Made by a program: the position numbers and the translations under genes. A model generated the notes under the pieces. That model ran no database searches and was not told the origin of the DNA. It saw nothing but the letters and a program-made list of their open reading frames with translations. From Siccirubricoccus phaeus (lineage in GTDB: Bacteria > Pseudomonadota > Alphaproteobacteria > Acetobacterales > Acetobacteraceae): 64,000 nt of DNA. The stretch is taken from assembly GCF_008360935.1 (NCBI RefSeq), contig NZ_SRXO01000014.1, positions 62,001 through 126,000 of the forward strand. The letters are read 5' to 3'. This document shows positions 22,240 to 41,712 of the stretch, piece after piece (position 1 is the stretch's first letter; each line of letters opens with the position of its first letter).

Positions 22240-23331
22240 CTACCGCACCTCCGCCAACCGCAACGCCCCCGCCATTCCGCGCGCCCCGCCGGCGCCGAAG
22301 ACCTGCGCCCCGGTGATCTCCAGCCGGCAGGCGGCCTGGCGCCGCGGCCATTCGCCCTGAACCGCCCCATGGGGCGTCGCCACCGCGTCCAGGGTGACGT
22401 CCTCCGCCAGCTCCACCACCAGTCGCGCCTCGCCCTCCGCCGTCGCGCGCACCAGGCGGATCAGCGGGCCCTCCGGTGCCGGATGGGCCACGACCTCCCG
22501 CGGGCGCAGGAAGGCGGTGGCCGGGCCGTCCGGCAGCGCCACCGCCAAGGGCGGCAGGCCGGGCAGGCGGAAGCGCAGCACGCCGCCGGCCACCTGCCCC
22601 TCCAGCCTTGCCGCCTCGCCCAGGAAGCCGGCGACGAAGGGCGTCGCCGGTGCCGCCAGCAGCGCCGAGGGCGTATCGAATTGCGCGATGCGGCCGCTTT
22701 CCAGCAGCGCCACGCGGTCCGCCAGCTCCATCGCCTCCTCCTGGTCATGGGTGACGAGGATGGTGGTGATGCCGAGGCGATCATGCAGGCCGCGCAGCCA
22801 GCGCCGCACCTCTCGCCGCACCAGCGCGTCCAGCGCGCCGAAGGGCTCGTCCAGCAGCAGCAGCCTGGGCTCGATGGCCAGCGCCCGGGCCAGCGCCACA
22901 CGCTGCCGCTGGCCGCCGGAAAGCTGGTCCGGCCAGCGCCGCTCCAGCTCCGGGATCTGGGTGAGGCGCAGCAATTCCCGCACCCGCGCCGTCAGCTCCG
23001 CCCGGCCCGGGCGCCGGCCGCGGGGCAGCACGGAGAGGCCGAAGGCGATGTTGTCGAAGACGTTCATGTGGCGGAACAGCGCGTAATTCTGGAACATCAC
23101 GCCGATGCCGCGTTCCCGCGCCGGCACCCCCGCCATCTCCCGCCCGGCGATCGCGACGCGGCCTTCCTCCTGCGGCTCCAGCCCCGCCAGCACGCGCAGC
23201 AGCGTGGTCTTGCCGGAGCCGGAAGGGCCGAGCAGGGCGACGAATTCCCCGTCCCGGACCGCCAGGCTCACGCCATCCAGCGCGGCGGTGGTGCCGAAGC
23301 GGCGCACCAGGCCTTCGACGATCACGCTCAT
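22240..23331 (-). CDS. cysA: Sulfate/thiosulfate ABC transporter ATPase
   Basis: The 363-residue ATPase has Walker A GPSGSGKT near residue 35, signature LSGGQRQRVALARA near residue 137, Walker B LLLLDEPFGAL and a C-terminal TOBE-type regulatory domain, the length expected for CysA. It energises uptake of sulfate or thiosulfate through the CysT-CysW channel. The start overlaps the cysW stop by four bases. It is the last gene of the sulfate operon sbp-cysT-cysW-cysA. Confidence 0.93.
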   Translation of the reverse strand: MSVIVEGLVRRFGTTAALDGVSLAVRDGEFVALLGPSGSGKTTLLRVLAGLEPQEEGRVAIAGREMAGVPARERGIGVMFQNYALFRHMNVFDNIAFGLSVLPRGRRPGRAELTARVRELLRLTQIPELERRWPDQLSGGQRQRVALARALAIEPRLLLLDEPFGALDALVRREVRRWLRGLHDRLGITTILVTHDQEEAMELADRVALLESGRIAQFDTPSALLAAPATPFVAGFLGEAARLEGQVAGGVLRFRLPGLPPLAVALPDGPATAFLRPREVVAHPAPEGPLIRLVRATAEGEARLVVELAEDVTLDAVATPHGAVQGEWPRRQAACRLEITGAQVFGAGGARGMAGALRLAEVR

Positions 23332-24158
23332 CCCGCCTCTCCCGCCACCCGGCCGGACCAGCGTTCCAGCACCGCCTTGGCGGCGAGGGTGACGAGGCCG
23401 AGCAACGCCAGCAGCGCCGCCACCGCGAAGGCGCCGGCGAATTGGTACTCATTGTAGAGGATCTCGACATGCAGCGGCATGGTGTTCGTCTGGCCGCGGA
23501 TATGGCCGGAGACGACCGAGACCGCGCCGAATTCCCCCATGGCGCGCGCATTGCACAGCAGCACGCCGGCGAGCAGCGCCCAGCGGATATTGGGCAGCGT
23601 CACCCGGCGGAAGATCTGCCAGCCGCCGGCGCCGAGCGTCGCCGCCGCTTCCTCCTCCGCCCGGCCCTGGTCCTGCATCAGCGGCAGCACGGTACGGGCG
23701 ACGAAGGGGAAGGTGACGAAGAGCGTCGCCAGCACGAGCCCGGGCAGGGCGAAGATCACCTGGATGCCGCGCGCCTGCAGCCACGGCCCGAGCCAGCCCT
23801 GCAGGCCGAAGATCAGCACGAAGACCAGGCCGGAGATCACGGGCGAGACGGAGAAGGGCAGTTCCACCAGCGTCACCAGCAGGCGCTTGCCGGGGAAGTC
23901 GTGCTTGGCGATGCACCAGGCGGCGGCGAGGCCGCCCACCGTGTTCAGCGGCACCGAAATGGCGGCGACGATCAGTGTCATGCGGATGGCGGCCAGGGTG
24001 TCGGGCTCGAGGATCGCGGCCAGCGCCGCCTCCCCGCCGCGGCGCAGCGCCTCGGTGAAGACGGCGGCCAGCGGCAGGGCCAGCAGCAGCAGCCCGGTGA
24101 GGACAGCCAGCGCCACCAGCAGGGCGCGGAACCAAAGCGGGTCCTCGGTGGCGTTCAT
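23328..24158 (-). CDS. cysW: Sulfate ABC transporter permease
   Basis: The 276-residue protein has six membrane helices and the cytoplasmic EAA loop ([19 protein letters not shown] at about residues 170-188), which contacts CysA. CAR-MGEFGAVSVVSG near residue 208 is characteristic of CysW. It overlaps cysA by four bases and starts eight bases after the stop of cysT, consistent with a single transcript. Confidence 0.92.
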   Translation of the reverse strand: MNATEDPLWFRALLVALAVLTGLLLLALPLAAVFTEALRRGGEAALAAILEPDTLAAIRMTLIVAAISVPLNTVGGLAAAWCIAKHDFPGKRLLVTLVELPFSVSPVISGLVFVLIFGLQGWLGPWLQARGIQVIFALPGLVLATLFVTFPFVARTVLPLMQDQGRAEEEAAATLGAGGWQIFRRVTLPNIRWALLAGVLLCNARAMGEFGAVSVVSGHIRGQTNTMPLHVEILYNEYQFAGAFAVAALLALLGLVTLAAKAVLERWSGRVAGEAG

Positions 24159-24166
24159 GGCCTGCC

Positions 24167-25018
24167 TCACCCTTGGCCTCGCCGCAGGGCGCGCTGCGCC
24201 AGGTTCAGCGCCAGCAGCACGGCGAAGGCCAGCAGCAGCATGGCAAGGCCGATGGCGGCGGCGCCGGCATAGTCGAATTGCTCCAGCCGGATGGTGATGA
24301 GGAGGGGGGCGATTTCGCTGACCATCGGCATGTTGCCGGCGATGAAGATGACGCTGCCGTATTCGCCGACGGCCCGGGCGAAGCCGAGGCCGAAGCCGGT
24401 GAGGATGGCGGGCGCCAGCGCGGGCAGGACGACGCGCCGCAGGGTCTGGAAGCGGGTGGCGCCGAGGGTCGCGGCGGCTTCCTCCGACTCCCGGCCCAGA
24501 TCGCGCAGCACCGGCTCCACCGTGCGGGCGGTGAAGGGCAGGGCGACGAAGACCAGGGCGATGACGATGCCGGCGGGGGTGAAGGCGACGCGCCAGCCGA
24601 ACCATTCCCCAAGCGGTCCGCCGACCCAGCCATTCGGCGCCAGCAGCGCCGTCATCGCCAGGCCGGCGACGGCGGTGGGCAGGGCGAAGGGCAGGTCGAT
24701 GGCGGCGTCCAGCACGGCACGGCCGGGAAAGCGCAACCGCACCACCGCCCAGGCCAGCAGCAGGCCGAGCGGCGCGGCGATGGCCGCCGCCAGCAGCGCC
24801 GCGCCGAAGGAAAGCCGCAGCGAGGCGGCGACGCGCGGCTCCGCCAGCGAGGCCCAGAGGCCGGCGAGCCCCAATTCGAAGGGCCGCAGCAGCAAGGCGA
24901 GCAGCGGCACCAGCACGATGGCGGAAAGCCAGAACAGCGCGATGCCGAAGGCGAGGCCGAAGCCCGGTATGGCGCGCAGCCGCCGGGCCCGGTGAGGCAA
25001 GGCGAGGCTGGCGCTCAT
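24167..25018 (-). CDS. cysT: Sulfate ABC transporter permease
   Basis: The 283-residue partner permease has six membrane helices and an EAA loop, [19 protein letters not shown], near residue 180. The [17 protein letters not shown] stretch near residue 215 is typical of CysT (CysU). Its ATG overlaps the stop of the sulfate-binding protein gene by four bases. Together with CysW it forms the sulfate channel. Confidence 0.92.
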
Positions 25019-26019
25019 CGTCCCGGTCGGTAGATGCGGTCGAACACGCCGCCATCGTTGAAATGGACGCGCTGCGCCTCCGCCCAGCCGCCGAAGGCGC
25101 CGTCGATCGTCACCAGCTCCAAAGTCGGGAAGCGCTCCGCGTTCTTCTGCAGCAGCGCCTGGTCGCGCGGGCGGTAGAAATGCTTCGCGGCGGCTTCCTG
25201 GCCGGCAGGGGCGTAGAGGCCGCGCAGATAGGCCTCCGCCAGGTCGCGGGTGCCGCGGCGGTCCACATTGCCGTCCACCACGGCGACGGAAGGTTCCGCC
25301 AGGATGGAGAGCGGCGGGTAGATAATGTCGAACTGGCCGGCGCCGAATTCCTGCAGGGCGAGATGCGCCTCGTTCTCCCAGGCCAGCAGCACGTCGCCCT
25401 GGCCGCGCTGGACGAAGGTGGTGGTGGAGCCGCGCGCGCCGGTATCCAACACCGGCACCTGGCGGAACAGCCTTGCGAGGAATTCCTCCGGGTTCTGCCC
25501 GTGCTTCTGCGCCGAGGCCCAGGCGGCGAGGTAGTTCCACCGCGCGCCGCCACTGGTCTTCGGGTTGGGGGTGATGATGGCGACGCCAGGCTTCACCAAA
25601 TCCGGCCAGTCCCGCAGCCCCTTCGGATTTCCCTTGCGGGTCAGGAAGACGATGGTGCTGGTGTAGGGCGCGCTGTTCTGCGGCAGGCGGGTGATCCAAT
25701 CCCTGGCGATCAGGCCGCGCTCGGCGATGGCATCCACGTCATAGGCCAGGGCGAGCGTCACCACATCGGCCGCCAGCCCGTCGATGACGGAGCGCGCCTG
25801 GCGCCCGGAGCCGCCATGGGAGGTGTTGATGCGCAGCGTCTGGCGGTGCTGCGCCTGCCACTCCCGGGCGAAGCCGGCATTGTAGTCGCGGTAGAATTCG
25901 CGCGTCGGGTCATAGCTGACATTCAGCAGCTCCCGCACCCCCTGGGCGCGGGCGGGCAGGGCCAGCAGGGCGGGCGCGGCGAGCATGGCGCGACGGCCGG
26001 GGCGGAAGGTGGATCGCAT
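25015..26019 (-). CDS. sbp: Periplasmic sulfate-binding protein
   Basis: The 334-residue protein has a signal sequence with an early Arg pair and cleavage near ARAQG at residue 26, and the family motifs [28 protein letters not shown] and [17 protein letters not shown], which place backbone and serine donors around the sulfate ion. It delivers sulfate to CysT-CysW-CysA. A GGAG ribosome binding site precedes the ATG at 26019. A 61-residue frame lies 48 bp upstream on the same strand. Confidence 0.93.
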
Positions 26020-26067
26020 CGCAGCAATCTCCGGTAGGCGTAGCGGAGGGGATAACGCGGCTGCCGC

Positions 26068-26253
26068 TCACATGGCGGCAAAGGCGGAGAGGATGGTGGC
26101 CTCGATTGTGTCCTCCGCCGGCGGCGGCAGGGTGGCCTGGAGGGTGAGGCCGAGCGCGGCGGCGGCAAGGCCGAGGCAGGTCATCGCCGCTTCCGGCGCC
26201 GCATGCAGCGCCTGGAGGGCGGCGAGGATCGGGGTGGCGAGACCAAGAAGCAT
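26068..26253 (-). CDS. Small hydrophobic protein before the sulfate operon, 61 aa
   Basis: The frame starts at ATG 26253 with an AGAGGGA ribosome binding site seven bases upstream and ends 48 bp before sbp. The product is mostly Ala and Leu with one cysteine near residue 26 and two hydrophobic segments, so it may sit in the membrane or be a short-lived leader product. I recognise no family. Coding is plausible because of the start signals and position, though chance is possible at this GC content. Confidence 0.4.
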   Translation of the reverse strand: MLLGLATPILAALQALHAAPEAAMTCLGLAAAALGLTLQATLPPPAEDTIEATILSAFAAM

Positions 26254-26364
26254 CGTCGTTTCCCTCTGAGGGTTGCATCACGGAATGGGCGCTGCCCGCT
26301 GCCCGCCATGGCTTTGCCGCGGCGGGGCTGTGGGCAGGCTGGGGAGGCCGGCGACCTCCGGCGT

Positions 26365-26438
26365 CCCCGCGAACACCGCGCAGCGGTTGCGTGGGGTTTT
26401 CCGGGCGCCCCACGACGCTGCGCAGCGGTGCCGTGGGG
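26365..26438 (-). terminator. Two tandem gene-end hairpins after ssuB (family B)
   Basis: CCCCACG...CGTGGGG at 26408-26438 ends eight bases after the ssuB stop codon; a related hairpin, CCCCGCGAAC...GTTGCGTGGGG, lies at 26365-26396. Both have the GCGCAGCGG core seen in gene-end hairpins after rho, hemJ, the ABC-2 permease and the DUF2889 gene. They probably terminate the long sulfonate operon. Confidence 0.55.
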
Positions 26439-26445
26439 ATCACGG

Positions 26446-27213
26446 TCAAGCCGCCTCGGCCAGGCCGAGCAGCGCCAGGATCTCCTCCCGCAGCGCCACC
26501 AGCCCGGCATCGTCGCGGCGGCGCGGCCGCGGCGTTTCGACGCGGATATCGGCACGGATGCGGGCCGGGCGATCGCTGAGGACGAGGACGCGGTCGGCCA
26601 GCAGCAGCGCTTCCTCCACGTCATGCGTCACCAGGAGAGCGGTGAAGCGCTCCCGCTCCCACAGCGCCACCAGCTCCCGCTGCATCGCCAGCCGGGTGAG
26701 GCTGTCGAGCTTGCCGAGCGGCTCGTCCAGCATCAGGATCTTCGGCTCGTTCACCAGCGAGCGGGCCAGCGAGGCGCGCTGCGCCATGCCGCCGGAAAGC
26801 TGGTGCGGATAGGCGCTGGCGAAGCCGGCAAGACCCACGAGGCGCAGCGCCTCCTCGATCCGCGGGCCGTCCGCCGCCAGTGTCCCGCGCGCCTCCGGGC
26901 CGAGCTGGGCATTGCCGCGCACGGTGCGCCAGGGGAACAGCGTCGGGTCCTGGAACATGATGGTGCGGCTGGGATGGGTGCCGGTGATCTCGGCGCCATC
27001 CACCAGCAACTGCCCCTCGGTCGGCGGTTCCAGCCCCGCCACCAGCCGCAGCAGGGTGGATTTGCCGCAGCCGGAAGGGCCGAGCAGGGCGACGAACTCG
27101 CCCGGCTCCGCGGTGAAGTCGATGTCCTGGAGGACGGGCAGGCTCCGCTTCTCCAGGGCGAAGGCGTGGCTGACGCCGCGCACTTCCAGCCTTGCGCCGT
27201 TCACGCCGCTCAC
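26446..27213 (-). CDS. ssuB: Sulfonate/taurine-type ABC transporter ATPase
   Basis: The 255-residue ATPase has Walker A LGPSGCGKST, the family stretch MFQDPTLFPWRTV, signature LSGGMAQRASLARSL and Walker B ILMLDEPLGKLD, matching the NrtD/SsuB/TauB group. A GTG start at 27213 overlaps the permease stop (GTGA), which I prefer to the longer frame. It is the last gene of the sulfonate operon and powers uptake through the adjacent permease. The substrate is inferred from SsuD and SfnB-like neighbours; taurine or other sulfonates are equally possible. Confidence 0.85.
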   Translation of the reverse strand: MSGVNGARLEVRGVSHAFALEKRSLPVLQDIDFTAEPGEFVALLGPSGCGKSTLLRLVAGLEPPTEGQLLVDGAEITGTHPSRTIMFQDPTLFPWRTVRGNAQLGPEARGTLAADGPRIEEALRLVGLAGFASAYPHQLSGGMAQRASLARSLVNEPKILMLDEPLGKLDSLTRLAMQRELVALWERERFTALLVTHDVEEALLLADRVLVLSDRPARIRADIRVETPRPRRRDDAGLVALREEILALLGLAEAA

Positions 27214-28208
27214 CACCGGACCAGCCCCTTCTGCCAGGAGAGCAGGCGGTCGCGCAGCCGGAACAGCAGGGTGACGGCGCCGGAGCACATGCCCGCCATG
27301 ACCAGCAGCGCGGCATACATGTTGGCGTAGGCGGCCCAGCCCTGGGCCCATTGCATGTACCAGCCGAGCCCGGCCTTCACCCCCATCATCTCGGCGACCA
27401 CGAGCACCGAGAAGGAGGCGCCGAGCCCCATGAACAGCCCGACGAAGACCGAGGGCATGGCCGCCGGCACCGCCACCTTCCGCACCAGGAACCAGGGCGA
27501 GGCGCCCATGGTGCGCGCCACGTCGTAATAGGCCTTGGAGACGGCGGAGACGCCGGACCAGGTGAGCACCGTCACCGGGAAGAAGCTGGCCAGCGCGATG
27601 AGGAAGGTGGAGGCGCCGCGGGAGGAGGCGAAGGCGAAGAAGGCGATGGGCAGCCAGGCCGTCGCCGGCAGCGGGCCGATCAGCCGCACCACCGGATGCG
27701 CCCAGTAGCCGACGATGCGCGACCAGCCCATGGCGACGCCGAAGAGGAAGCCGATGACGGCACCCAGCGCATAGCCCGGCACCACCAGCAGCAGGCTGCG
27801 CCAGACGCTCTCGCCGAGGCGCGCATAGTCGTCGGTGAAGACTTCCAGGAGCGATTGCGGCGCGGCGAAGAAGGGCCGCGGCAGCAGCTCGTATTTCGCC
27901 GTTGCCAGCTCCCAGGCCAGCAGGGCGGCGGCGAGGACGATCAGCCAGGGGCCTGCTTCGCGCAGCCGCGCCAGGCGCGGCGCCAGGCCGGAGAGAGTGC
28001 TGCCGAGGGCGGCGAGCAGGACCAGCCCGCCGAAGCCGGCGGCGAGCGTCGCCAGCTCCTGCGTGCGGCCGAGGTCGTCGGCATCCGGCAGCAGGGAGAT
28101 CGCCGCCGCGGCACCGATCCAGGCAAGGCCCGCCACCCAGCCGGAGGGCCAGAAGGCGGCGGGACGGGCGGGGGCGAGCAGCCCCGCGCCAAGGGTGGTC
28201 GCGCTCAT
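27210..28208 (-). CDS. ssuC: Sulfonate-type ABC transporter permease
   Basis: The 332-residue protein has the C-terminal binding-protein-dependent permease domain with an EAA-like loop (YYDVARTMGASPWFLVRKV near residue 218). It is about 70 residues longer than usual SsuC because of an extra N-terminal region with two further hydrophobic segments. The start overlaps the stop of the second receptor gene (ATGA). It should form the channel for the tandem receptors encoded upstream. Confidence 0.85.
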   Translation of the reverse strand: MSATTLGAGLLAPARPAAFWPSGWVAGLAWIGAAAAISLLPDADDLGRTQELATLAAGFGGLVLLAALGSTLSGLAPRLARLREAGPWLIVLAAALLAWELATAKYELLPRPFFAAPQSLLEVFTDDYARLGESVWRSLLLVVPGYALGAVIGFLFGVAMGWSRIVGYWAHPVVRLIGPLPATAWLPIAFFAFASSRGASTFLIALASFFPVTVLTWSGVSAVSKAYYDVARTMGASPWFLVRKVAVPAAMPSVFVGLFMGLGASFSVLVVAEMMGVKAGLGWYMQWAQGWAAYANMYAALLVMAGMCSGAVTLLFRLRDRLLSWQKGLVRW

Positions 28209-29299
28209 GCCGGCGCCCCGTTCAGCACATCGACATGGATGCGGGCGGCGAGCCGCGCCGGATCGGTGTTCGGCCGGATGACCTTCACGAGCTTCAGCTC
28301 CGCGATGTAGGCGGCGAGATCGGCTTCCAGATCCGCGCCCTTCGGATGGTGGTTGTGGGTGTGGCTGCGCAGCATGGCGGCCAGCACCGGCGCCGGCGCC
28401 CGCGGCGCGTATTTGGCGAAGATCTCCGCCGCCGCGTCCGGGTTGGCATGCACCCAATCCTCGGCCTCGAGGATGGCGGCGGTGATGGCGCGCGCCACCG
28501 GCCTATCCTGCCGCACCAGCTTGCCGCTGATGCCGAGGATGCAGCAGGTGCGGTGGGCATATTCGCCGGAGAGGTTGTTCGAGACCTCCACCAGCCCGTC
28601 GCGGTCCCGCAGGATGGAGGCCATCGGGTCGCCCAGGGTGAAGCCCTGGATATCGCCGCGCTTCAGCGCCTCGGAGAGCAGGTCGGCCGGGTATTGCCGC
28701 CAATTGATCTCGTTGACCGGATCGATGCCCGCCTTGGCCGCGACGATGGAGAAGAAATTCTTGTTCGGCGAGGCCATGTCCTCGGCGCCGATCGTCTTGC
28801 CGCGCAGATCGGCGATGGCGGCGACGCCGCTGCCCGGCGCGCTGAGCAACCGCATGCAGCCGCCATGCATGGCGGCCGTCACCTTCACGTCGAAGCCGGC
28901 CTCCAGCGCCTTCAGCCAGCGCAGCGCCATGCCGCCGCCGGCATCCGCCTTGCCGGTCGCCAGGGCTTCCAGCAATTGGTCGGTGGAGCCGCCCCAATTG
29001 ACGAACTCGATGTCCAGATTGTGCCGGGCATAGATGCCCTGCACCTCGGCGGAGGGCACCGCCGCGGTGCAGATGCCGTTCTGGCTCCAGGCCAGCTTCA
29101 GCTTGCGGCGCGGGCCGGGCACCGCGGCCTCCGCCAGGTCCGTGGTCGCGGTGCGGCAGATGGGCGGTGCGGCCAGCAGCTCCGCCACCGGATCCGCGGG
29201 CGCGAAGGCGCGCGGGGCCATGGCGCCGAGCGGCGCGGCCAGGCCGGCAACGCCGAGGCCGCGCAGCAGGGCACGGCGGTTGGGCAGGGGCGCGCTCAT
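28205..29299 (-). CDS. ABC transporter substrate-binding protein (SsuA/TauA-like), copy 2
   Basis: The 364-residue periplasmic receptor has a twin-arginine-like leader (NRRALLRG) and belongs to the NMT1/SsuA group. It is clearly paralogous to the gene just upstream, sharing PRRKLKL, GGSTDQLLEA, GKADAG/GKSDAG, MALRWLK and SGEYAxRxCCILG. Two adjacent cysteines near residue 245 are conserved in both copies. Overlaps of four bases on each side tie it into the operon. Two receptors for one channel suggest broadened substrate range. Confidence 0.85.
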   Translation of the reverse strand: MSAPLPNRRALLRGLGVAGLAAPLGAMAPRAFAPADPVAELLAAPPICRTATTDLAEAAVPGPRRKLKLAWSQNGICTAAVPSAEVQGIYARHNLDIEFVNWGGSTDQLLEALATGKADAGGGMALRWLKALEAGFDVKVTAAMHGGCMRLLSAPGSGVAAIADLRGKTIGAEDMASPNKNFFSIVAAKAGIDPVNEINWRQYPADLLSEALKRGDIQGFTLGDPMASILRDRDGLVEVSNNLSGEYAHRTCCILGISGKLVRQDRPVARAITAAILEAEDWVHANPDAAAEIFAKYAPRAPAPVLAAMLRSHTHNHHPKGADLEADLAAYIAELKLVKVIRPNTDPARLAARIHVDVLNGAPA

Positions 29300-30384
29300 G
29301 CCGGCGCCTCGCTCAGCACGTCGGCATAGATGCGCGCGGCCAGCCGCTGCGCATTGGTGTTCGGGCGGATCACCTTCACCAGCTTCAGCTCCTCGATATA
29401 GGCGGCAAGCTGATTGCTCAGCACCGGCCCGTGCGGATGGTCGCCATGGGTGTGGCTGCGCAGCATGGCGGCGAGCTGCGCCGCATTGGTGCCGCGGGCA
29501 TTGGTCAGGAAGATCGCCGCCGCTTCGTCCGGATTGGCGTGGACCCAGTCCTGGGTTTCCAGCAGCGCGCCGGTCACGGCGCGGGCGGCGGCGCGGTCCT
29601 CCCGCAGCAGGCTGCCGCGGATGCCGAGGATGCAGCAGGCGCGGTCCGCATATTCGCCGCTGAGGTTGTTGGCGATCTCGTGCAGATCGTCCCGCTCGCG
29701 CAGGATCCAGGCGAGCGGGTCGCCCAGGGTGATGGCCTGCACGTCCCCGCGCTTCAGCGCCTCGCCCAGCAGGTCGCCGGGGAAGACGCGGTAGGTGATG
29801 TCCTTGTCCGGATCGAGGCCGAGCTTCGCCGCGACGATGCCGAAGAAATTCTTGTCCGGCGCGCCCATATCGGTCACGCCCAGCACCTTGCCGCGCAGAT
29901 CGGCGACCGTGTTGATGCCGCTGCCCTTCTGGGAGAACAGCCGCATGCAGCCGCCATGGATGGCGGTGGAGATGCGGACGTCGAAGCCCTGCTCCAGCGG
30001 CTTCAGCCAGCGCAGCGCCATGCCGATGCCGGCATCCGACTTGCCGGTGGCGATGGCTTCCAGGAGCTGGTCGGTGGAGCCGCCGAAATTCACCAGCTCC
30101 ACGTCCAGATTGTTGCGCGCGAAGAAGCCGCGCTGCACGGCGACGATGGCGCCGACGGTGCAGATGGAATTGGCGTTGAAGCTGAGCTTCAGCTTGCGCC
30201 GTGGCCCCGGCGCGGCATAGGCGCCGCCCCCCGCCGTGGCGCCGATGCGACAGATCGAAGACGGGTCGCGCAGGATGGCGTCCAGATCCGGCGCCGCGGC
30301 GCGCGGCGCCATGGCGCCTGCCGGAATGGCGAGCGCGGCGGCGCCGGCAGCGCGCAGCAGGGCGCGGCGGTCAGGGGTGGTCAT
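29296..30384 (-). CDS. ABC transporter substrate-binding protein (SsuA/TauA-like), copy 1
   Basis: The 362-residue receptor has a twin-arginine-like leader (DRRALLRAAG) and closely resembles the downstream copy over its full length. An AGGAGAGGAG ribosome binding site supports ATG 30384 rather than the start nine codons upstream. Its gene starts 13 bp after the SsuD-like monooxygenase gene. Family knowledge makes it a receptor for a sulfonate, sulfate ester or related oxoanion; no residue pattern here names the ligand. Confidence 0.85.
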   Translation of the reverse strand: MTTPDRRALLRAAGAAALAIPAGAMAPRAAAPDLDAILRDPSSICRIGATAGGGAYAAPGPRRKLKLSFNANSICTVGAIVAVQRGFFARNNLDVELVNFGGSTDQLLEAIATGKSDAGIGMALRWLKPLEQGFDVRISTAIHGGCMRLFSQKGSGINTVADLRGKVLGVTDMGAPDKNFFGIVAAKLGLDPDKDITYRVFPGDLLGEALKRGDVQAITLGDPLAWILRERDDLHEIANNLSGEYADRACCILGIRGSLLREDRAAARAVTGALLETQDWVHANPDEAAAIFLTNARGTNAAQLAAMLRSHTHGDHPHGPVLSNQLAAYIEELKLVKVIRPNTNAQRLAARIYADVLSEAPA

Positions 30385-30397
30385 GGTTCTCCTCTCC

Positions 30398-31501
30398 TCA
30401 CTCGGCGGCAACGGGGACGGCGCCGCGCGCGGCGATGGCGGCGCGGGTCGCCGGCAGCAGCTCGGCGCCGTATTGCGCGGCGTCCTCCAGCGGGTCGAAG
30501 CCGCGGATCAGGAAGGTGTCGATGCCGAGGGCGTGGTAGTCGGCCAGGCTCTCCGCCACCTGCTCCGGCGTGCCGACCAGAGCGGTGGTGTTGGCGCCGG
30601 CGCCGACCGCCGCCGCCACCTCCGTCCACAGCCGCGTGTCGCGCACCGGGCCGGCGGCCGCCGCTTCCAACAGACGCTTGCTGCCGATGCTCTCCGGCTT
30701 CGGCCCGCCGCTGCCCACCGCATCGGCGCGCAGCGTGCGGATGCGCTCGATGATGCGATTGGCGCGGGCCCAGGCATCCGCCTCGCTCCCCGCCAGCACC
30801 GGGCGGAAGGACATGCTGAAGCGGATGGCGGCCGGGTCCCGCCCTGCCTTCGCCACGCTGGCCTTCACCCGCGCGATGGTCTCCCGCGCCTGGTCCAGCG
30901 TCTCGCCCCAGAAGGCATAGACATCGGCGATGCGGCCGGCGATCTCGATGGCGATGTCGGAGGAGCCGCCGAAGAAGACCGGGATATGCGGCTTCTGCAC
31001 CGGCTTCACCTCGGCGAAGCCGCCCTCGAAGCGGTAATGCTCGCCGTGGTGGTCGAAGGGCTTGTCGCTGGTCCAGAGGCGCTTCAGCAGCGTGACGTAT
31101 TCCTCGGACCGGGCGTAGCGGTCGGCATGGTCCAGGTAGTCGCCATCCTTGCGCTGCTCCGTGCTGCTGCCGCCGCTGATGATGTGCACGGCAGCGCGGC
31201 CGCCGGTGAGCTGGTCGAAGGTGGCGAATTGCCGGGCCGCCAGGGTCGGCGCGATGAAGCCCGGGCGGTGCGCCACCATGAAGCCGATGCGCGTCGCGGC
31301 GGCGGCGGCGTGCTGCGCCACCAGCAGCGCGTCCGGGCTGGTGCTGCCCCAGGCGACGAGGATGCGGTCGAAGCCCGCCTGCTCATGCGCCAGGGCGAAG
31401 CGCTGGATGTAGCCGGGGTCCACCACCGGGCCCTGGGGCGGATGGATCTCGGATTGCGCGCGATGCGCGATCATGCCGATGAAGGTCAGCGGGTGCGGCA
31501 T
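30398..31501 (-). CDS. ssuD: SsuD-like FMNH2-dependent monooxygenase
   Basis: The 367-residue protein is a bacterial-luciferase-fold (LLM) enzyme most like alkanesulfonate monooxygenase, which splits sulfonates to sulfite and aldehyde using reduced flavin. Supporting features are the RIGFMVAHRPGF stretch near residue 71, the HIISGGSSTEQRKDGDYLDH segment near residue 104 and VFFGGSSDIA near residue 175. A GGAG ribosome binding site precedes ATG 31501. No flavin reductase (ssuE) is visible in the window, so reduced FMN must come from elsewhere. Location in the sulfur operon supports the assignment. Confidence 0.87.
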   Translation of the reverse strand: MPHPLTFIGMIAHRAQSEIHPPQGPVVDPGYIQRFALAHEQAGFDRILVAWGSTSPDALLVAQHAAAAATRIGFMVAHRPGFIAPTLAARQFATFDQLTGGRAAVHIISGGSSTEQRKDGDYLDHADRYARSEEYVTLLKRLWTSDKPFDHHGEHYRFEGGFAEVKPVQKPHIPVFFGGSSDIAIEIAGRIADVYAFWGETLDQARETIARVKASVAKAGRDPAAIRFSMSFRPVLAGSEADAWARANRIIERIRTLRADAVGSGGPKPESIGSKRLLEAAAAGPVRDTRLWTEVAAAVGAGANTTALVGTPEQVAESLADYHALGIDTFLIRGFDPLEDAAQYGAELLPATRAAIAARGAVPVAAE

Positions 31502-34342: not shown

Positions 34343-35119
34343 TCAGCCGGCGATGAGGAAAGGGGTGGCGGCGGCGGCGGCACCGAGCGGCGCCTCCGGC
34401 CCCGCCGCGGCGTGCAGCAGCGGCGGCTGCGCCCCGCCCTGGCCCGGCAGCAGCCGGTGCAGCAAGGCGTGGCCGTCCCACAGCAGCAGATCGCCCTGGC
34501 GCAGCGCCAGCCGCCAGGTGAAGGCGGGGGCGGTGGCGGCGGCACGCAGCCGCGGCAGCAGGGCGGCGGCCTCGGCCTGCGGCAGGCCGGTCAGCGCGGT
34601 CGCCTCCGGCGGCAGGAAGAGGCTGCGGCCCGGCCCGGCCCGCCCCGCCCGTACCAGGGGCAGCGGCCCGGCAGGGGTCACCGCCTCGAGATACTCGATA
34701 CGATGGGCCAGCCAGGGGTGCAGCCCGGCGAGGACGGCGTGCTGGCCGGCGAATTCGGCGGCCAGGCCCGGCGCCGGCGCTGCCGCGACGAAGAGGGCCT
34801 GCAGCCGGGAAGGGCGCTGCGGCGCGGCGCGGTCGAAGGCCCAGCCGGCCAGCGCCTCCGGCGCGACCTCCGCCGGGGCCGGGGCGGCGGCGGTGCCGGC
34901 CAGGCGGGCGGCGAGGGTGGCAAGCTGGGCCGGGCGCAGCGACTGGTCGCGCAGCAGGAGGAGGCGATGCGCGGCGAGGGCGGCCTCCAGCCGGGTCTGC
35001 AGCGCCGGCGGCAGCGGCGCGCCGAGGTCGAGGATCTCGGCCCCGAATTCCGGGTGGAGCGGCTGGAAGGGCAGCGCGGCGGCGCGGCGGGGCGCGGCCT
35101 CGGCAAGAAGGGCGGACAT
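34343..35119 (-). CDS. TauD/TfdA-like protein lacking an iron ligand
   Basis: The 258-residue protein aligns with taurine/alpha-ketoglutarate dioxygenases: GAEILDLGAPL near residue 26, LLLLRDQSL near residue 53, SLFLPPEATALTGL near residue 166 and the C-terminal GDLLLWDGHALLHR. Active enzymes bind iron through HxD and a distal His. Here the first motif reads W93-A94-F95-D96, so the His is replaced by Ala; D96 and H221 remain. The distal Arg that binds 2-oxoglutarate is also not evident. It may be inactive or have another role. It is the first large gene of the sulfonate operon. Confidence 0.72.
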   Translation of the reverse strand: MSALLAEAAPRRAAALPFQPLHPEFGAEILDLGAPLPPALQTRLEAALAAHRLLLLRDQSLRPAQLATLAARLAGTAAAPAPAEVAPEALAGWAFDRAAPQRPSRLQALFVAAAPAPGLAAEFAGQHAVLAGLHPWLAHRIEYLEAVTPAGPLPLVRAGRAGPGRSLFLPPEATALTGLPQAEAAALLPRLRAAATAPAFTWRLALRQGDLLLWDGHALLHRLLPGQGGAQPPLLHAAAGPEAPLGAAAAATPFLIAG

Positions 35120-35192
35120 GGGATTCCCCTGCGGGCCTCGGCAGGCGAGGACCGTGGCAAGCGGTGACGGGCGGCGCGGGTCGGTCGGGCGG

Positions 35193-35285
35193 TCAGCCCG
35201 GACAGCGACGACAGGGCGAGAGCGGCGCGGGCCCGTGGACCGAGGGGCTGCGCTTTAGCTCTTGGTGACGCGGCGCAAGCTGCAT
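35193..35285 (-). CDS. 30-codon upstream reading frame ending in Cys-Arg-Arg-Cys, candidate leader peptide
   Basis: In the leader of the sulfonate operon, an ATG at 35285 with GGAG eight bases upstream opens a 30-codon frame. It is Arg/Pro-rich, has cysteines at 25 and 28 (SPCRRCPG) and stops at 35193, 73 bases before the TauD-like start. Cysteine-containing leader peptides are known to control sulfur genes in mycobacteria by ribosome stalling when cysteine is scarce. The same role here is inference from place and composition. Confidence 0.4.
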   Translation of the reverse strand: MQLAPRHQELKRSPSVHGPAPLSPCRRCPG

Positions 35286-35332
35286 TGTTCAAACTCCGCG
35301 GTTCCGCCGCGGGATGCGGCGGCGACGTGATG

Positions 35333-35361
35333 ATTTAACGATGTGATTTCGGGTGAGTCAA
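35333..35361 (-). promoter_or_regulatory. Sigma70 promoter of the sulfonate operon
   Basis: On the minus strand TTGACT (35361-35356) and TTAAAT (35338-35333) are separated by exactly 17 bp, in the most AT-rich stretch of the window. Transcription would start near 35326 and give a leader of about 200 bases that includes the Cys-containing reading frame. Confidence 0.55.
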
Positions 35362-35819
35362 TATGATTCTATCGGTGTTGATCGTGAATTTAGGACCCTT
35401 CCCGGGGCGCTGGAAGGAGGATGGCGTGGAATATTTTTCTGCGCATAATCAGCCAGTTGGGTAAAGGATGTGCGCCCAGGGGGCGGGCCGGCCAGCCTTC
35501 CCGGCCAGATCCACGTCGTATTCCCGCGTGAAACAAGGCAGGATTCACCACTGCGGCGGGTTATTTCACGTGCCGGAAGCGGGGACCGGCGGGCGGGAAG
35601 CCGGGGCGCCGGCGCGGGGGAGGCGCAGCGGCCGTGGCACCGCCGCCGAATCCCTTGCCTTTCCACCCCGCCCCCCGTTGCAGCGGGCCGCTCGGCGGCC
35701 CATCTCCGGGTTTGCGCCGGCCGGGCCGGGGCACTACTGTCCGGCCGGTCCCCGCCGCCCAGTGGCGCGCCAGGGGCGGCCGCAACAATCACCTCAAGAT
35801 CACCTCATCGGGGCGTCAC
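35362..35819. other. Divergent intergenic region before tatA, no gene seen
   Basis: About 460 bp without a supportable gene. The first 200 bp are unusually AT-rich for this genome (for instance GTGGAATATTTTTCTGCG near 35425), consistent with promoters or a regulator site. The remainder is GC-rich spacer running up to tatA. Frames that cross it lack recognisable features. Confidence 0.5.
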
Positions 35820-36080
35820 ATGGGTTCCTTCAGCATCTGGCACTGGCTCATCGTGCTGCTGGTCGTCCTGCTGCTCTTCGGCAGCGGCAAGATCAGCACC
35901 CTGATGGGCGACCTCGCCACGGGCATCAAATCCTTCAAGAAGAACATGAAGGAGGAAGACGCCTCGCTGGCCGAGTCGGCGCCGCCCGCGGCCCAGCCGC
36001 CGGCCGGCAGCATCCAGGGCCCCGCCGCCGGCCAGCAGGGCCAGCAGGCGCACGCCTCCTCCAGCCGGCCCGCCGCCTGA
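35820..36080 (+). CDS. tatA: Twin-arginine translocase subunit TatA
   Basis: The 86-residue protein has one N-terminal membrane helix ([15 protein letters not shown]), the FGSGK hinge, the amphipathic helix [22 protein letters not shown] and a Gln/Pro/Ala-rich tail: a complete TatA. TatA oligomers form the protein-conducting part of the Tat system. No tatB or tatC lies here, so it is an orphan. Several proteins in this window carry twin-arginine-like leaders. The start at 35820 gives the standard N-terminus. Confidence 0.92.
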
Positions 36081-36172: not shown

Positions 36173-36910
36173 ATGGTCGGGACGATGGCGGCCGGGACGC
36201 GACCGGCCGCGGCGCGACCCAGCGACATGCCGGTGGACGAGGCCCCTTCCTGGGCCCGCCCGGATGCGGCGGAGAGCCTGGACGCCGCCGCCAGCGCCAT
36301 CATCGCCGCCGGGCGGCGCATGGACCGCTTCGGCTGGGCGCCGGCCACCGCGGGCAATATCTCCATCCGCCTCTCCGCGACGCAGATCGCCATCACCCGC
36401 TCCGGCGGGCATAAGGGCTTCCTGGGCCCTGAAGGCGTCATCCTGGTGGACCCCGAGGGGACGCCGCTGGTGCCGGGGGACCGCGCCTCGGCCGAGACCG
36501 GGCTGCATTGCGGCATCTACCGCCGCTTCCCGGCGGCGGGGGCGGTGCTGCACGGCCATTCCCCGGCGGCCACCGTACTCTCCCGGCTGGGCGGGGACTC
36601 CATCCGCCTGGCGGGCTATGAGCTGCTGAAGGCCTTCCCCGGCCTCTCGACGCATGACGCCGCGATCGCCCTGCCGGTGGTGGAGAACGACCAGGACATT
36701 CCCCGCCTGCAAAGTGTGGTCGAGGCCCGCTGGCAGGCGGCGGCGCAGCAGTCGCCCCGAGGCGTGCCGGGCGGGGTGGTGCCGGGCTATGTCATCCGCG
36801 GCCATGGCGTCTATGTCTGGGCCGCCGATATGCCGACGGCCCTGACAAGGCTGGAGGCGCTGGAATTCATGCTGGCCTGTGACCTGGAAGAACGGAGGAT
36901 CGGGCGATGA
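36173..36910 (+). CDS. mtnB: Methylthioribulose-1-phosphate dehydratase
   Basis: MtnB dehydrates 5-methylthioribulose 1-phosphate in the methionine salvage pathway. The 245-residue protein is a class II aldolase-like zinc enzyme: NISIRLS near residue 62, ITRSGGHKGF near residue 74, and the zinc histidines in AVLHGHSPAATVLSR near residue 124 and in VIRGHGVYVW near residue 206. About 25 residues precede the usual N-terminus; in-frame ATG codons at 36185 and 36227 are alternatives. The stop overlaps mtnD by four bases. Confidence 0.9.
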   Translation: MVGTMAAGTRPAAARPSDMPVDEAPSWARPDAAESLDAAASAIIAAGRRMDRFGWAPATAGNISIRLSATQIAITRSGGHKGFLGPEGVILVDPEGTPLVPGDRASAETGLHCGIYRRFPAAGAVLHGHSPAATVLSRLGGDSIRLAGYELLKAFPGLSTHDAAIALPVVENDQDIPRLQSVVEARWQAAAQQSPRGVPGGVVPGYVIRGHGVYVWAADMPTALTRLEALEFMLACDLEERRIGR

Positions 36911-37443
36911 GCCGTCTGACCGTGTGGGACGCCGCGAGCGGCGCCCGGATCATGCAGAGCGAGGATGCCGCCGAGATCGCCAGGGCGCTCGGCGCCATCG
37001 GCGTGCGCTTCGAGCGCTGGGAAGGCGTGGCGGTGCCGGAGGATGCCGACAACGACGCCATCCTCGCCGCCTACCGCCCCTGGCTGGACAGGCTGATGGG
37101 CGAGACCGGCGCCGGCTCCGCCGATGTGGTGAGCCTGACGCTGGACCATCCCCAGGCCGCGGCGATGCGCGAGAAATTCCTCAACGAGCACATCCACACC
37201 GAGGATGAGGTGCGCTTCTTCGTCCGCGGCAGCGGCGATTTCGTGCTGCATGTGGACGGCAAGGTGTGGGATGCGCATTGCGAGCAGGGCGACCTGCTGA
37301 GCGTGCCGGCCGGCACCCGCCACTGGTTCGACGCCGGCGAGAAGCCGTATTTCACCGCGCTGCGGGTCTTCACCGACCCGGCCGGCTGGGTGGCGCAGTT
37401 CACCGGCACGGATATGGCGCAGCGCTTCCCTGTCGCGGCCTGA
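36907..37443 (+). CDS. mtnD: Acireductone dioxygenase
   Basis: MtnD cleaves acireductone; the iron form yields the keto-acid precursor of methionine plus formate. The 178-residue cupin has the metal ligands H95, H97 and E101 in HIHTEDEVRF and H139 in PAGTRHWF. It overlaps mtnB by four bases. Together with mtnC it covers the middle of methionine salvage; mtnA, mtnK or mtnP and the final transaminase are not in the window. Confidence 0.93.
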   Translation: MSRLTVWDAASGARIMQSEDAAEIARALGAIGVRFERWEGVAVPEDADNDAILAAYRPWLDRLMGETGAGSADVVSLTLDHPQAAAMREKFLNEHIHTEDEVRFFVRGSGDFVLHVDGKVWDAHCEQGDLLSVPAGTRHWFDAGEKPYFTALRVFTDPAGWVAQFTGTDMAQRFPVAA

Positions 37444-37512
37444 GGGCGGCCGGGGAATGACGCCGCGCCGGGCCCGGTCGCGGAACACCGCAGCGCCGGC
37501 GAGGAGCAGGGC

Positions 37513-38223
37513 GTGAGCGAGGCTCGCGCCATCCAGGTCGTGCTGATGGATATCGAAGGCACGACGACCAGCATCGCCTTCGTCAAGGACCGGCTGTTTC
37601 CCTTCGCGGAGGCGGCGCTGGAGGAATTCCTCGCAGCGCATGGGGACCGGCCGGAGGTGCTGGCCATCATCGCGGAGGTGCGGGAGCTGGCGCCCGGGCG
37701 GCAGCCGGTGGAAGCGCTGCGCGCCTGGATCGCCGAGGACGCCAAGGTGACGCCGCTGAAGGCGCTGCAGGGGCTCATCTGGCACCAGGGCTATGCCGAT
37801 GGCCGGCTGCAAGGGCATCTCTGGCCGGATGTCGCCGCCTGCCTGCGGGCCTGGGCGGCGGGCGGGGTGCGGCTGGCGATCTATTCCTCCGGCTCCGTTC
37901 CGGCGCAGCGGGATCTGTTCGGGCATTCCGAGGCGGGGGATCTGACGCCGCTGCTCGCCGGCTTCTTCGACACGCGCATCGGGGCGAAGCGGGAGGCGGA
38001 AAGCTACGCCGCCATCGCCGCCGAGCTGCGCGCGGCGCCGGGGCAGATGCTGTTCCTCTCCGACGTGGCGGAGGAGCTGGATGCGGCGCGCGCCGCCGGG
38101 CTGCTGACCTGCCAATTGGTGCGGGCAGCGGATGGCACGCAGGCGTCCGGGCGGCATCCGGAGGCCGAGGATTTTCCGGCGGTGGCAAGGCGGTTCGGGT
38201 TGCCGGGCGCGCCGCCCCCGTAA
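37513..38223 (+). CDS. mtnC: Enolase-phosphatase E1
   Basis: MtnC is a HAD-family enzyme that enolises and dephosphorylates 2,3-diketo-5-methylthiopentyl-1-phosphate to acireductone, the substrate of MtnD. The 236-residue protein has the first HAD motif LMDIEGTTTS (D13 nucleophile, E15 in place of the usual second Asp, typical of MtnC), YSSGSVPAQRDLFGHS near residue 120 and LFLSDVAEELDAA near residue 180. Translation probably starts at GTG 37513, 69 bases after mtnD, behind GGAGCAGGG. Confidence 0.93.
   Translation: MSEARAIQVVLMDIEGTTTSIAFVKDRLFPFAEAALEEFLAAHGDRPEVLAIIAEVRELAPGRQPVEALRAWIAEDAKVTPLKALQGLIWHQGYADGRLQGHLWPDVAACLRAWAAGGVRLAIYSSGSVPAQRDLFGHSEAGDLTPLLAGFFDTRIGAKREAESYAAIAAELRAAPGQMLFLSDVAEELDAARAAGLLTCQLVRAADGTQASGRHPEAEDFPAVARRFGLPGAPPP

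Positions 38224-40437: not shown

Positions 40438-41712
<1,275 letters not shown>

Follow-up and report, generated by a model that had tools for sequence, protein, structure and literature searches.

A SAM-II-like RNA element containing the start of a candidate cysteine-sensing leader peptide upstream of a sulfonate operon in Siccirubricoccus phaeus

The sulfur operon and its leader

The window (the whole stretch of 64,000 nucleotides analysed here, from contig NZ_SRXO01000014.1 of S. phaeus) contains on its minus strand an operon with the gene order TauD, acyl-CoA-dehydrogenase-like, TctC, SsuD-like, two SsuA-like, permease, ATPase, solute-binding protein, permease and ATPase. Judged by Pfam matches and by best NCBIfam matches that stay below cut-off, these are genes for the uptake and use of sulfonate and sulfate. 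The initial annotation had spoken of a ten-gene sulfur operon; the link with sulfur was borne out by Pfam and NCBIfam, the gene number was not, eleven genes being counted (starts approximate). The features of the leader and the operon are as follows.

35333-35361, minus strand: promoter, read from the sequence (TTGACT 35361-35356, 17 bp, TTAAAT 35338-35333)
35304-35322, minus strand: 5' hairpin of 7 bp in the computed fold, immediately 5' of the aptamer
35248-35302, minus strand: SAM-II-like aptamer (P1 35300-35296 with 35273-35269; UUUG 35293-35290; GCAGCUUGC 35283-35275; GCUAAAGCGC 35259-35250)
35294-35297, minus strand: Shine-Dalgarno sequence GGAG of the leader ORF, overlapping P1, 8 nt before ATG 35285
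35193-35285, minus strand: leader ORF of 30 codons, MQLAPRHQELKRSPSVHGPAPLSPCRRCPG, with its start codon (ATG 35285) inside the aptamer
35202-35213, minus strand: Cys codons 25 (35213-35211) and 28 (35204-35202), both TGT
35120-35192, minus strand: C-rich spacer, a candidate Rho loading stretch, with the Shine-Dalgarno sequence of the first gene (AGGGGA, 35130-35125) at its end
34343-35119, minus strand: first structural gene, TauD family dioxygenase (ATG 35119; PF02668, E 1.2e-20)
30398-31501, minus strand: SsuD-like alkanesulfonate monooxygenase (PF00296; NF001939/TIGR03565 best matches, below cut-off)
28205-30411, minus strand: two SsuA-like solute-binding proteins (PF09084/PF13379; TIGR01728 below cut-off)
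22240-28208, minus strand: ABC permease, ABC ATPase, Sbp-like binding protein, permease and ABC ATPase (PF00528, PF00005, PF13531; starts approximate)

The promoter-like pair claimed by the initial annotation (TTGACT, 17 bp, TTAAAT) is present in the minus-strand sequence. A consensus scanner that applies a stricter rule called no promoter in 35050-35850. Among the relatives described below as type A, TTGA[CTA] was found at most 75 nt 5' of P1 in 30 of 33, and a regular expression of TTGAC with a spaced -10 matched just 6 of the 51 leaders of the family. Hairpins resembling the 5' hairpin of the window were seen by eye, and left uncounted, upstream of P1 in several relatives.

Present as originally described are also the 30-codon frame with its GGAG, the two cysteines near its end and the 73 bases that separate it from the ATG of the TauD-family gene. 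The Cys codons are located 3 and 6 codons ahead of the stop codon; the CRRC of the leader end places two cysteines within four codons, and runs of 2-3 adjacent cysteines occur in relatives. In a congener the frame is 83% identical across all 30 residues, and in a third genome of the genus the frame is more divergent, at 50% identity.

The 60 nt after the leader stop consist of 55% C and 27% G in the window (49% and 26% in the pooled type A leaders). The scanner found no intrinsic terminator (hairpin plus U run) at window positions 35050-35850. A hairpin GGCGC-UGA-GCGCC that spans the stop codon, and which pairs well in many type A leaders and fails in others, including that of the window, was dropped as a candidate. 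In the neighbourhood, three frames at 36173-38223 (plus strand) resemble by eye the methionine-salvage genes mtnB, mtnD and mtnC, and a frame at 40438-41712 (minus strand) resembles by eye transcription terminator Rho.

A divergent relative of the SAM-II riboswitch

The first 12 codons of the leader were used as a DNA pattern, allowing 3 mismatches and with the reversed pattern as a control, in a search of 150 genomes of the family. The pattern was found at 15 places in 11 of these genomes, with zero mismatches at 12 places and one at the other 3; the reversed pattern never matched in the 150 genomes. Among the 12, CTT and CTA are retained, which are presumably rare codons given the high GC content of the genome, and in codon 9 the first two bases vary and the third is invariant; both points suggest a constraint on RNA. 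The nucleotides of these codons are conserved because they are located in an RNA element.

This element has the order of the SAM-II riboswitch (metA motif; RF00521 SAM_alpha and RF01726), namely P1, a GAUUUG-like loop, GCUUGC, P1', an A-rich linker and GCUAAA, and like SAM-II, as described in the available part of PMC1273637, it is alphaproteobacterial and found with sulfur and methionine genes. Unlike SAM-II, the element of the window has a shorter linker and P2b, scores below Rfam thresholds and holds the start of a leader ORF.

In the window no Rfam SAM-II match to the element was obtained at gathering or at permissive thresholds, and the same applied to loci L002-L004. Rfam SAM_alpha matched the element in two family genomes (22.8 and 21.8 bits); these scores would be weak if alone, because 13 further family elements, of 15 known at that stage, were absent from the SAM_alpha matches listed, another place reached 20.6 bits, and 14 of 14 control genomes also had SAM_alpha matches below cut-off. 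Elsewhere in these family genomes SAM-II proper scored 55.5 to 65.2 bits with the SAM_alpha model, above cut-off, in 7 of 11. Among 20 loci from the class, RF00521 or RF01726 (SAM-II long-loop) matched the element in 12, at 18.8 to 41.2 bits and in three cases with E about 1 to 2; the remaining 8 gave no SAM-II match at the element. Locus L346, with 37.9 bits vs the RF00521 gathering score of 36, was the sole one of the 20 above that score.

Covariance model R2, for which 70 sequences from other families were used and the window's family was left out, matched the window at 62.6 bits (E 1.7e-14). Model R1, built from 11 family sequences, matched it with E 2.6e-22, the window being among its building sequences. 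R2 also matched 7 of 11 SAM-II loci at 19.9-26.8 bits, with 10.8 bits for the best of 13 unrelated loci; the remaining four SAM-II loci, which are below the Rfam cut-off, scored 10.8 to 16, and one of these did not exceed the best unrelated locus.

P1 covaries: 3 of its 5 pairs change on both sides and 99.7% of cells are paired in 64 distinct class sequences, in an alignment that was fitted to the model and thus favours P1. The covariation score was reached by 0 of 500 shuffles and the number of pair types by 51 of 500, these shuffles ignoring relatedness. In the 15 family sequences P1 is invariant apart from position shifts. A candidate P2 pseudoknot, GC(A)GCUU with AAGCGC, was read from the sequence, and its P2b would be short; apart from one double change GU/AC in L320 it is almost invariant. 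Since the element of the window is below the Rfam gathering score, we filed it as a divergent relative of the SAM-II riboswitch, predicted to bind SAM, and not as a canonical member.

Within the family, R1 detected 51 places of at least 44.6 bits in 33 of 397 genomes, the next match being at 26.9 bits. At E <= 0.1 it gave 206 of the 397 genomes, which was judged to be mostly noise, and the 51 best places were kept. Across the class, a sample of 385 genomes from 277 genera had a match at E <= 1e-4 in 80 genomes (the window's among them) and 54 genera; among the weakest of these, below about 31 bits, are SAM-II itself and perhaps some matches due to chance. The core without the AUG was present in at least 119 stretches of named genomes, including Novosphingobium, Sphingopyxis, Bosea, Azospirillum, Methylopila and Roseomonas. 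The element is widespread in Alphaproteobacteria. In the accessible portion of PMC4239095, SAM_alpha is reported in Rhizobiales and Rhodobacterales only; unlike that range, the variant described here occurs in Acetobacteraceae and sphingomonads, among others.

Among the matches listed, ATG occupies the position of the window's leader start in 34 of 134 core matches, with 18 of 18 sites assigned to the window's family vs 16 of 116 others, mostly sphingomonads. Other triplets at this position, in the same matches, were AAG (33), GAG (27), CAG (14), GGG (13) and further ones. Because 100 of the 116 non-family sites are without ATG, the AUG is an extra feature of the aptamer and no part of the conserved fold.

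Cysteine codons in the leaders of relatives

The 51 family leaders were sorted by eye. Eighteen precede metN-like genes (type B; one member was scanned, with TIGR02314 as best match, below cut-off), and the remaining 33 were designated type A, the majority of which precede recognisable sulfur genes or a small protein of 60-90 aa. The initial annotation had proposed a comparison with related genomes, in which conservation of the frame and its Cys codons would count as support. Such conservation is seen in type A: the sampled family genomes contain 33 such leaders, 32 of them with Cys in the last 8 residues. It is not seen in type B, where the aptamer is kept, the frame is not, and Cys near the end is found in 10 of 18. 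The type A exception is L078, in which the usual stop is lost; L113 is counted among the 32 solely through an extension past its lost stop. In addition, several type B loci (among L033, L094-L100, L107-L109 and L114, all with the aptamer and an AUG before metN-like genes) have a second mini-ORF thereafter, e.g. MTCRMPxC.

The type A leaders have 13 different lengths, and 21 of the 33 end in CRR directly before the stop. After codon 12, cysteine accounts for 74 of 678 codons in frame, compared with 35 and 6 out of 645 for the two other frames and 3.4% for shuffles. TGT (53) exceeds TGC (21) among these Cys codons, though the third base is G or C in 531 of the 678 codons. Because of the 83% identity in the congener and the terminal Cys in 32 of 33 family leaders, the frame is, by its sequence conservation, more than a product of chance. 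A peptide-profile search of the family yielded no leader beyond those found by the RNA model, the five weakest rows (E 0.004-0.008) being set aside as chance. In L116 core bases of the aptamer are lost, yet the peptide end MRLAPRHQALKR...CRR-stop is kept; by reading, L116 differs from the family consensus by four synonymous changes and one nonsynonymous change. L104, L110 and L113 likewise depart from the aptamer core.

Outside the family the cysteine codons were found in ORFs separate from the aptamer. The test permitted ORFs of 7-60 codons with a start 15-140 nt past the aptamer. At 58 of 180 non-family sites, which are not independent as several are close relatives, there is a Shine-Dalgarno-led ORF whose last 9 residues contain at least 2 Cys and whose start is located 29-59 nt past the aptamer (examples are MTGSALRPVEPLARSMMCCCRR and MNTDREIRILITALCCGGTCC). 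The controls gave 29 of 3600 for dinucleotide shuffles and 4 of 1904 for random stretches of the same loci, and none of the 11 SAM-II leaders (7 over and 4 under the Rfam cut-off) had a separate Cys ORF. The other 122 of the 180 sites, most named sphingomonads included, had no Cys leader under this test. Between aptamer and separate leader a hairpin CCACGA...UCGUGG is present in many sites, and anti-Shine-Dalgarno complementarity is weakly enriched (23 of 38 vs 37% of linker shuffles).

The ends of the Cys leaders differ across the class (CC, CCC, CCR and CRC), and the peptide bodies are not conserved, as close pairs of 12 leaders together show 125 nonsynonymous and 19 synonymous codon differences, so that the Cys codons rather than the peptide seem to be kept. 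Both observations argue against an arrest peptide or a metal sensor, in which the Cys-rich C-terminus would act otherwise than by sensing Cys-tRNA. The Arg that follows Cys in many leaders, as in the 21 of 33 with CRR-stop, goes beyond what Cys codons need and would suit such a peptide; on balance we regard it as very unlikely. The identification of a cysteine-sensing leader peptide, with stalling itself predicted, has good support from the comparison with relatives. This part of the initial annotation stands, as the Cys codons are kept in the family and recur class-wide; it was incomplete in that it missed the SAM-II-like aptamer holding the Shine-Dalgarno sequence and the start codon.

Each of the two parts might also act without the other. 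If the SAM-II-like aptamer alone were to regulate, the frame would be a by-product of conserved RNA and of the openness of frames in GC-rich DNA. Conservation of the N-terminal codons as nucleotides, type B leaders that retain the aptamer and not the frame, and the missing ATG at the 100 non-family sites among the matches listed are in line with this. It leaves unexplained, however, the in-frame terminal Cys in 32 type A leaders of so many lengths, the Cys leaders that stand apart from the aptamer at 58 of the 180 non-family sites, and L116, where the core is degraded and MRLAPRHQALKR...CRR-stop retained; we consider it quite unlikely. Conversely, the peptide alone might sense Cys-tRNA, with an aptamer remnant that no longer binds SAM. 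The element of the window escapes Rfam detection, its P2b is short, and core bases are lost in L104, L110, L113 and L116, as would be expected of a remnant. However, the 15 family sequences selected by pattern, and 70 of 70 class sequences selected by model, retain UUUGA, GCUUGC and GCUAAAG, and the pattern matches show 0 (12 places) or 1 (3 places) mismatches where 3 were allowed. A peptide acting alone is thus unlikely.

Downstream genes and a possible control by two signals

A selection of 62 downstream proteins, out of 119, was scanned. The Pfam counts were TonB plug 15, ABC ATPase 10, TauD 7, NlpA lipoprotein 4, NMT1 4, Cys/Met PLP enzymes 3, SBP_bac_11 3, OsmC 3, and others. By these matches many of the downstream genes belong to sulfur or methionine metabolism; the largest group, TonB Plug (15 of 62), is no obvious sulfur gene. 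Metabolism of methionine is represented by metY-type PLP enzymes, methionine-transport proteins and one frame that is metX-like by eye. These genes, together with scores that grade into SAM-II, argue against an aptamer that has drifted to another ligand (e.g. SAH or a sulfur compound) and gates the same leader peptide. Such drift would agree with a spacing and P2b unlike SAM-II, and riboswitch classes are known to have variants that bind new ligands, according to the available text of PMC10853860; we hold it to be highly improbable.

We propose a leader with two sensors for sulfur starvation, in which a SAM aptamer controls whether a cysteine-sensing leader peptide is translated, and put the probability of this at roughly 60%. 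The divergent SAM-II aptamer would fold at the 5' end of the mRNA. As GGAG overlaps P1, and the AUG sits on the pseudoknot strand that would pair with GCUAAAGCGC, the SAM-bound fold should block the leader ORF. With high SAM the aptamer would be folded and the leader ORF untranslated, and in the untranslated C-rich leader Rho may end transcription, or the Shine-Dalgarno sequence of the first gene may stay hidden. With low SAM the leader ORF would be translated. If charged Cys-tRNA were scarce too, ribosomes would stall at the UGU codons that closely precede the stop, and by shielding or refolding the leader would allow the operon to be expressed. We infer that the operon needs both low SAM and low charged Cys-tRNA. 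Since the aptamer contains the Shine-Dalgarno sequence and the start codon of the leader, the logic is likely to be one of two signals and not of one.

It seems to us slightly better than an even bet that such a two-metabolite gate, leading from a divergent SAM-II aptamer through a cysteine-sensing leader ORF to sulfur-scavenging operons, operates class-wide. The sensors would be fused in the window's family, where one stretch of RNA would be both the aptamer and the first twelve codons (MQLAPRHQxLKR).

Cysteine leader peptides of mycobacteria and other actinobacteria, as presented in the available part of PMC1262725, are similar: a short ORF has Cys codons near its stop and precedes sulfur genes, there is no conserved terminator hairpin, and Rho is proposed. 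They differ in that this part of PMC1262725 mentions no aptamer. Polycysteine attenuators are also mentioned in the accessible text of PMC13236596. Riboswitches that act through translation of a uORF resemble our proposal as well: in the B12 riboswitches of Mycobacterium tuberculosis (metE, ppe2) one uORF is located inside an aptamer. The part of PMC11260477 at hand describes one ligand for them and does not report that the uORF senses an amino acid. For metA of Sinorhizobium meliloti, the available portion of PMC9373788 places a Shine-Dalgarno sequence that adjoins the aptamer under SAM-II control; there the gated frame is metA itself, and that portion describes no Cys leader peptide.

The polycysteine attenuators of Canestrari 2020 reportedly involve ORFs that, by the title, are leaderless, unlike the leaders found here, which are Shine-Dalgarno led. 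Among the papers listed by a full-text literature search, with most subscription papers outside its scope, none described a SAM riboswitch paired with a cysteine leader peptide.

If the proposal is correct, SAM and cysteine, the two ends of sulfur metabolism, would be read in series by a single leader, in which the same nucleotides would belong to a coding region and to a ligand pocket. Sulfur-starvation operons of many Alphaproteobacteria would then be under an RNA element that is mostly missed at current Rfam thresholds, and the leader ORF would lend itself as a reporter for studying how riboswitches act together with leader peptides.

A family of small proteins of 60-90 aa (e.g. L187:4046-4249, L181:1227-1421 and L231:3440-3676) heads the operon, among the matches listed, at 52 of 134 sites and at 32 of the 38 Cys-leader sites of that set. 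Scans of members against Pfam and NCBIfam gave nothing significant. The predicted fold has three strands and two helices (mean pLDDT 89.1), and its comparison with the PDB gave no significant match (best E 0.77). In sphingomonads (L151, L155, L161, L176, L189 and others) the aptamer was seen before TauD-like and many TonB-receptor genes; at sphingomonad loci the Cys-leader test was nearly always negative, L226 being positive.

At four of the 20 class loci (L296:144-202, L310:153-211, L311:145-201 and L352:4-73) the variant aptamer is preceded, at a distance of roughly 120-150 bases, by a SAM_alpha match in the same leader, so that SAM-type elements stand in tandem. The genome of the window itself carries, on contig 16 (L050), a SAM-II element in which a long insert precedes GCUAAA (first half 31.4 bits), and similar elements are present in two congeners.
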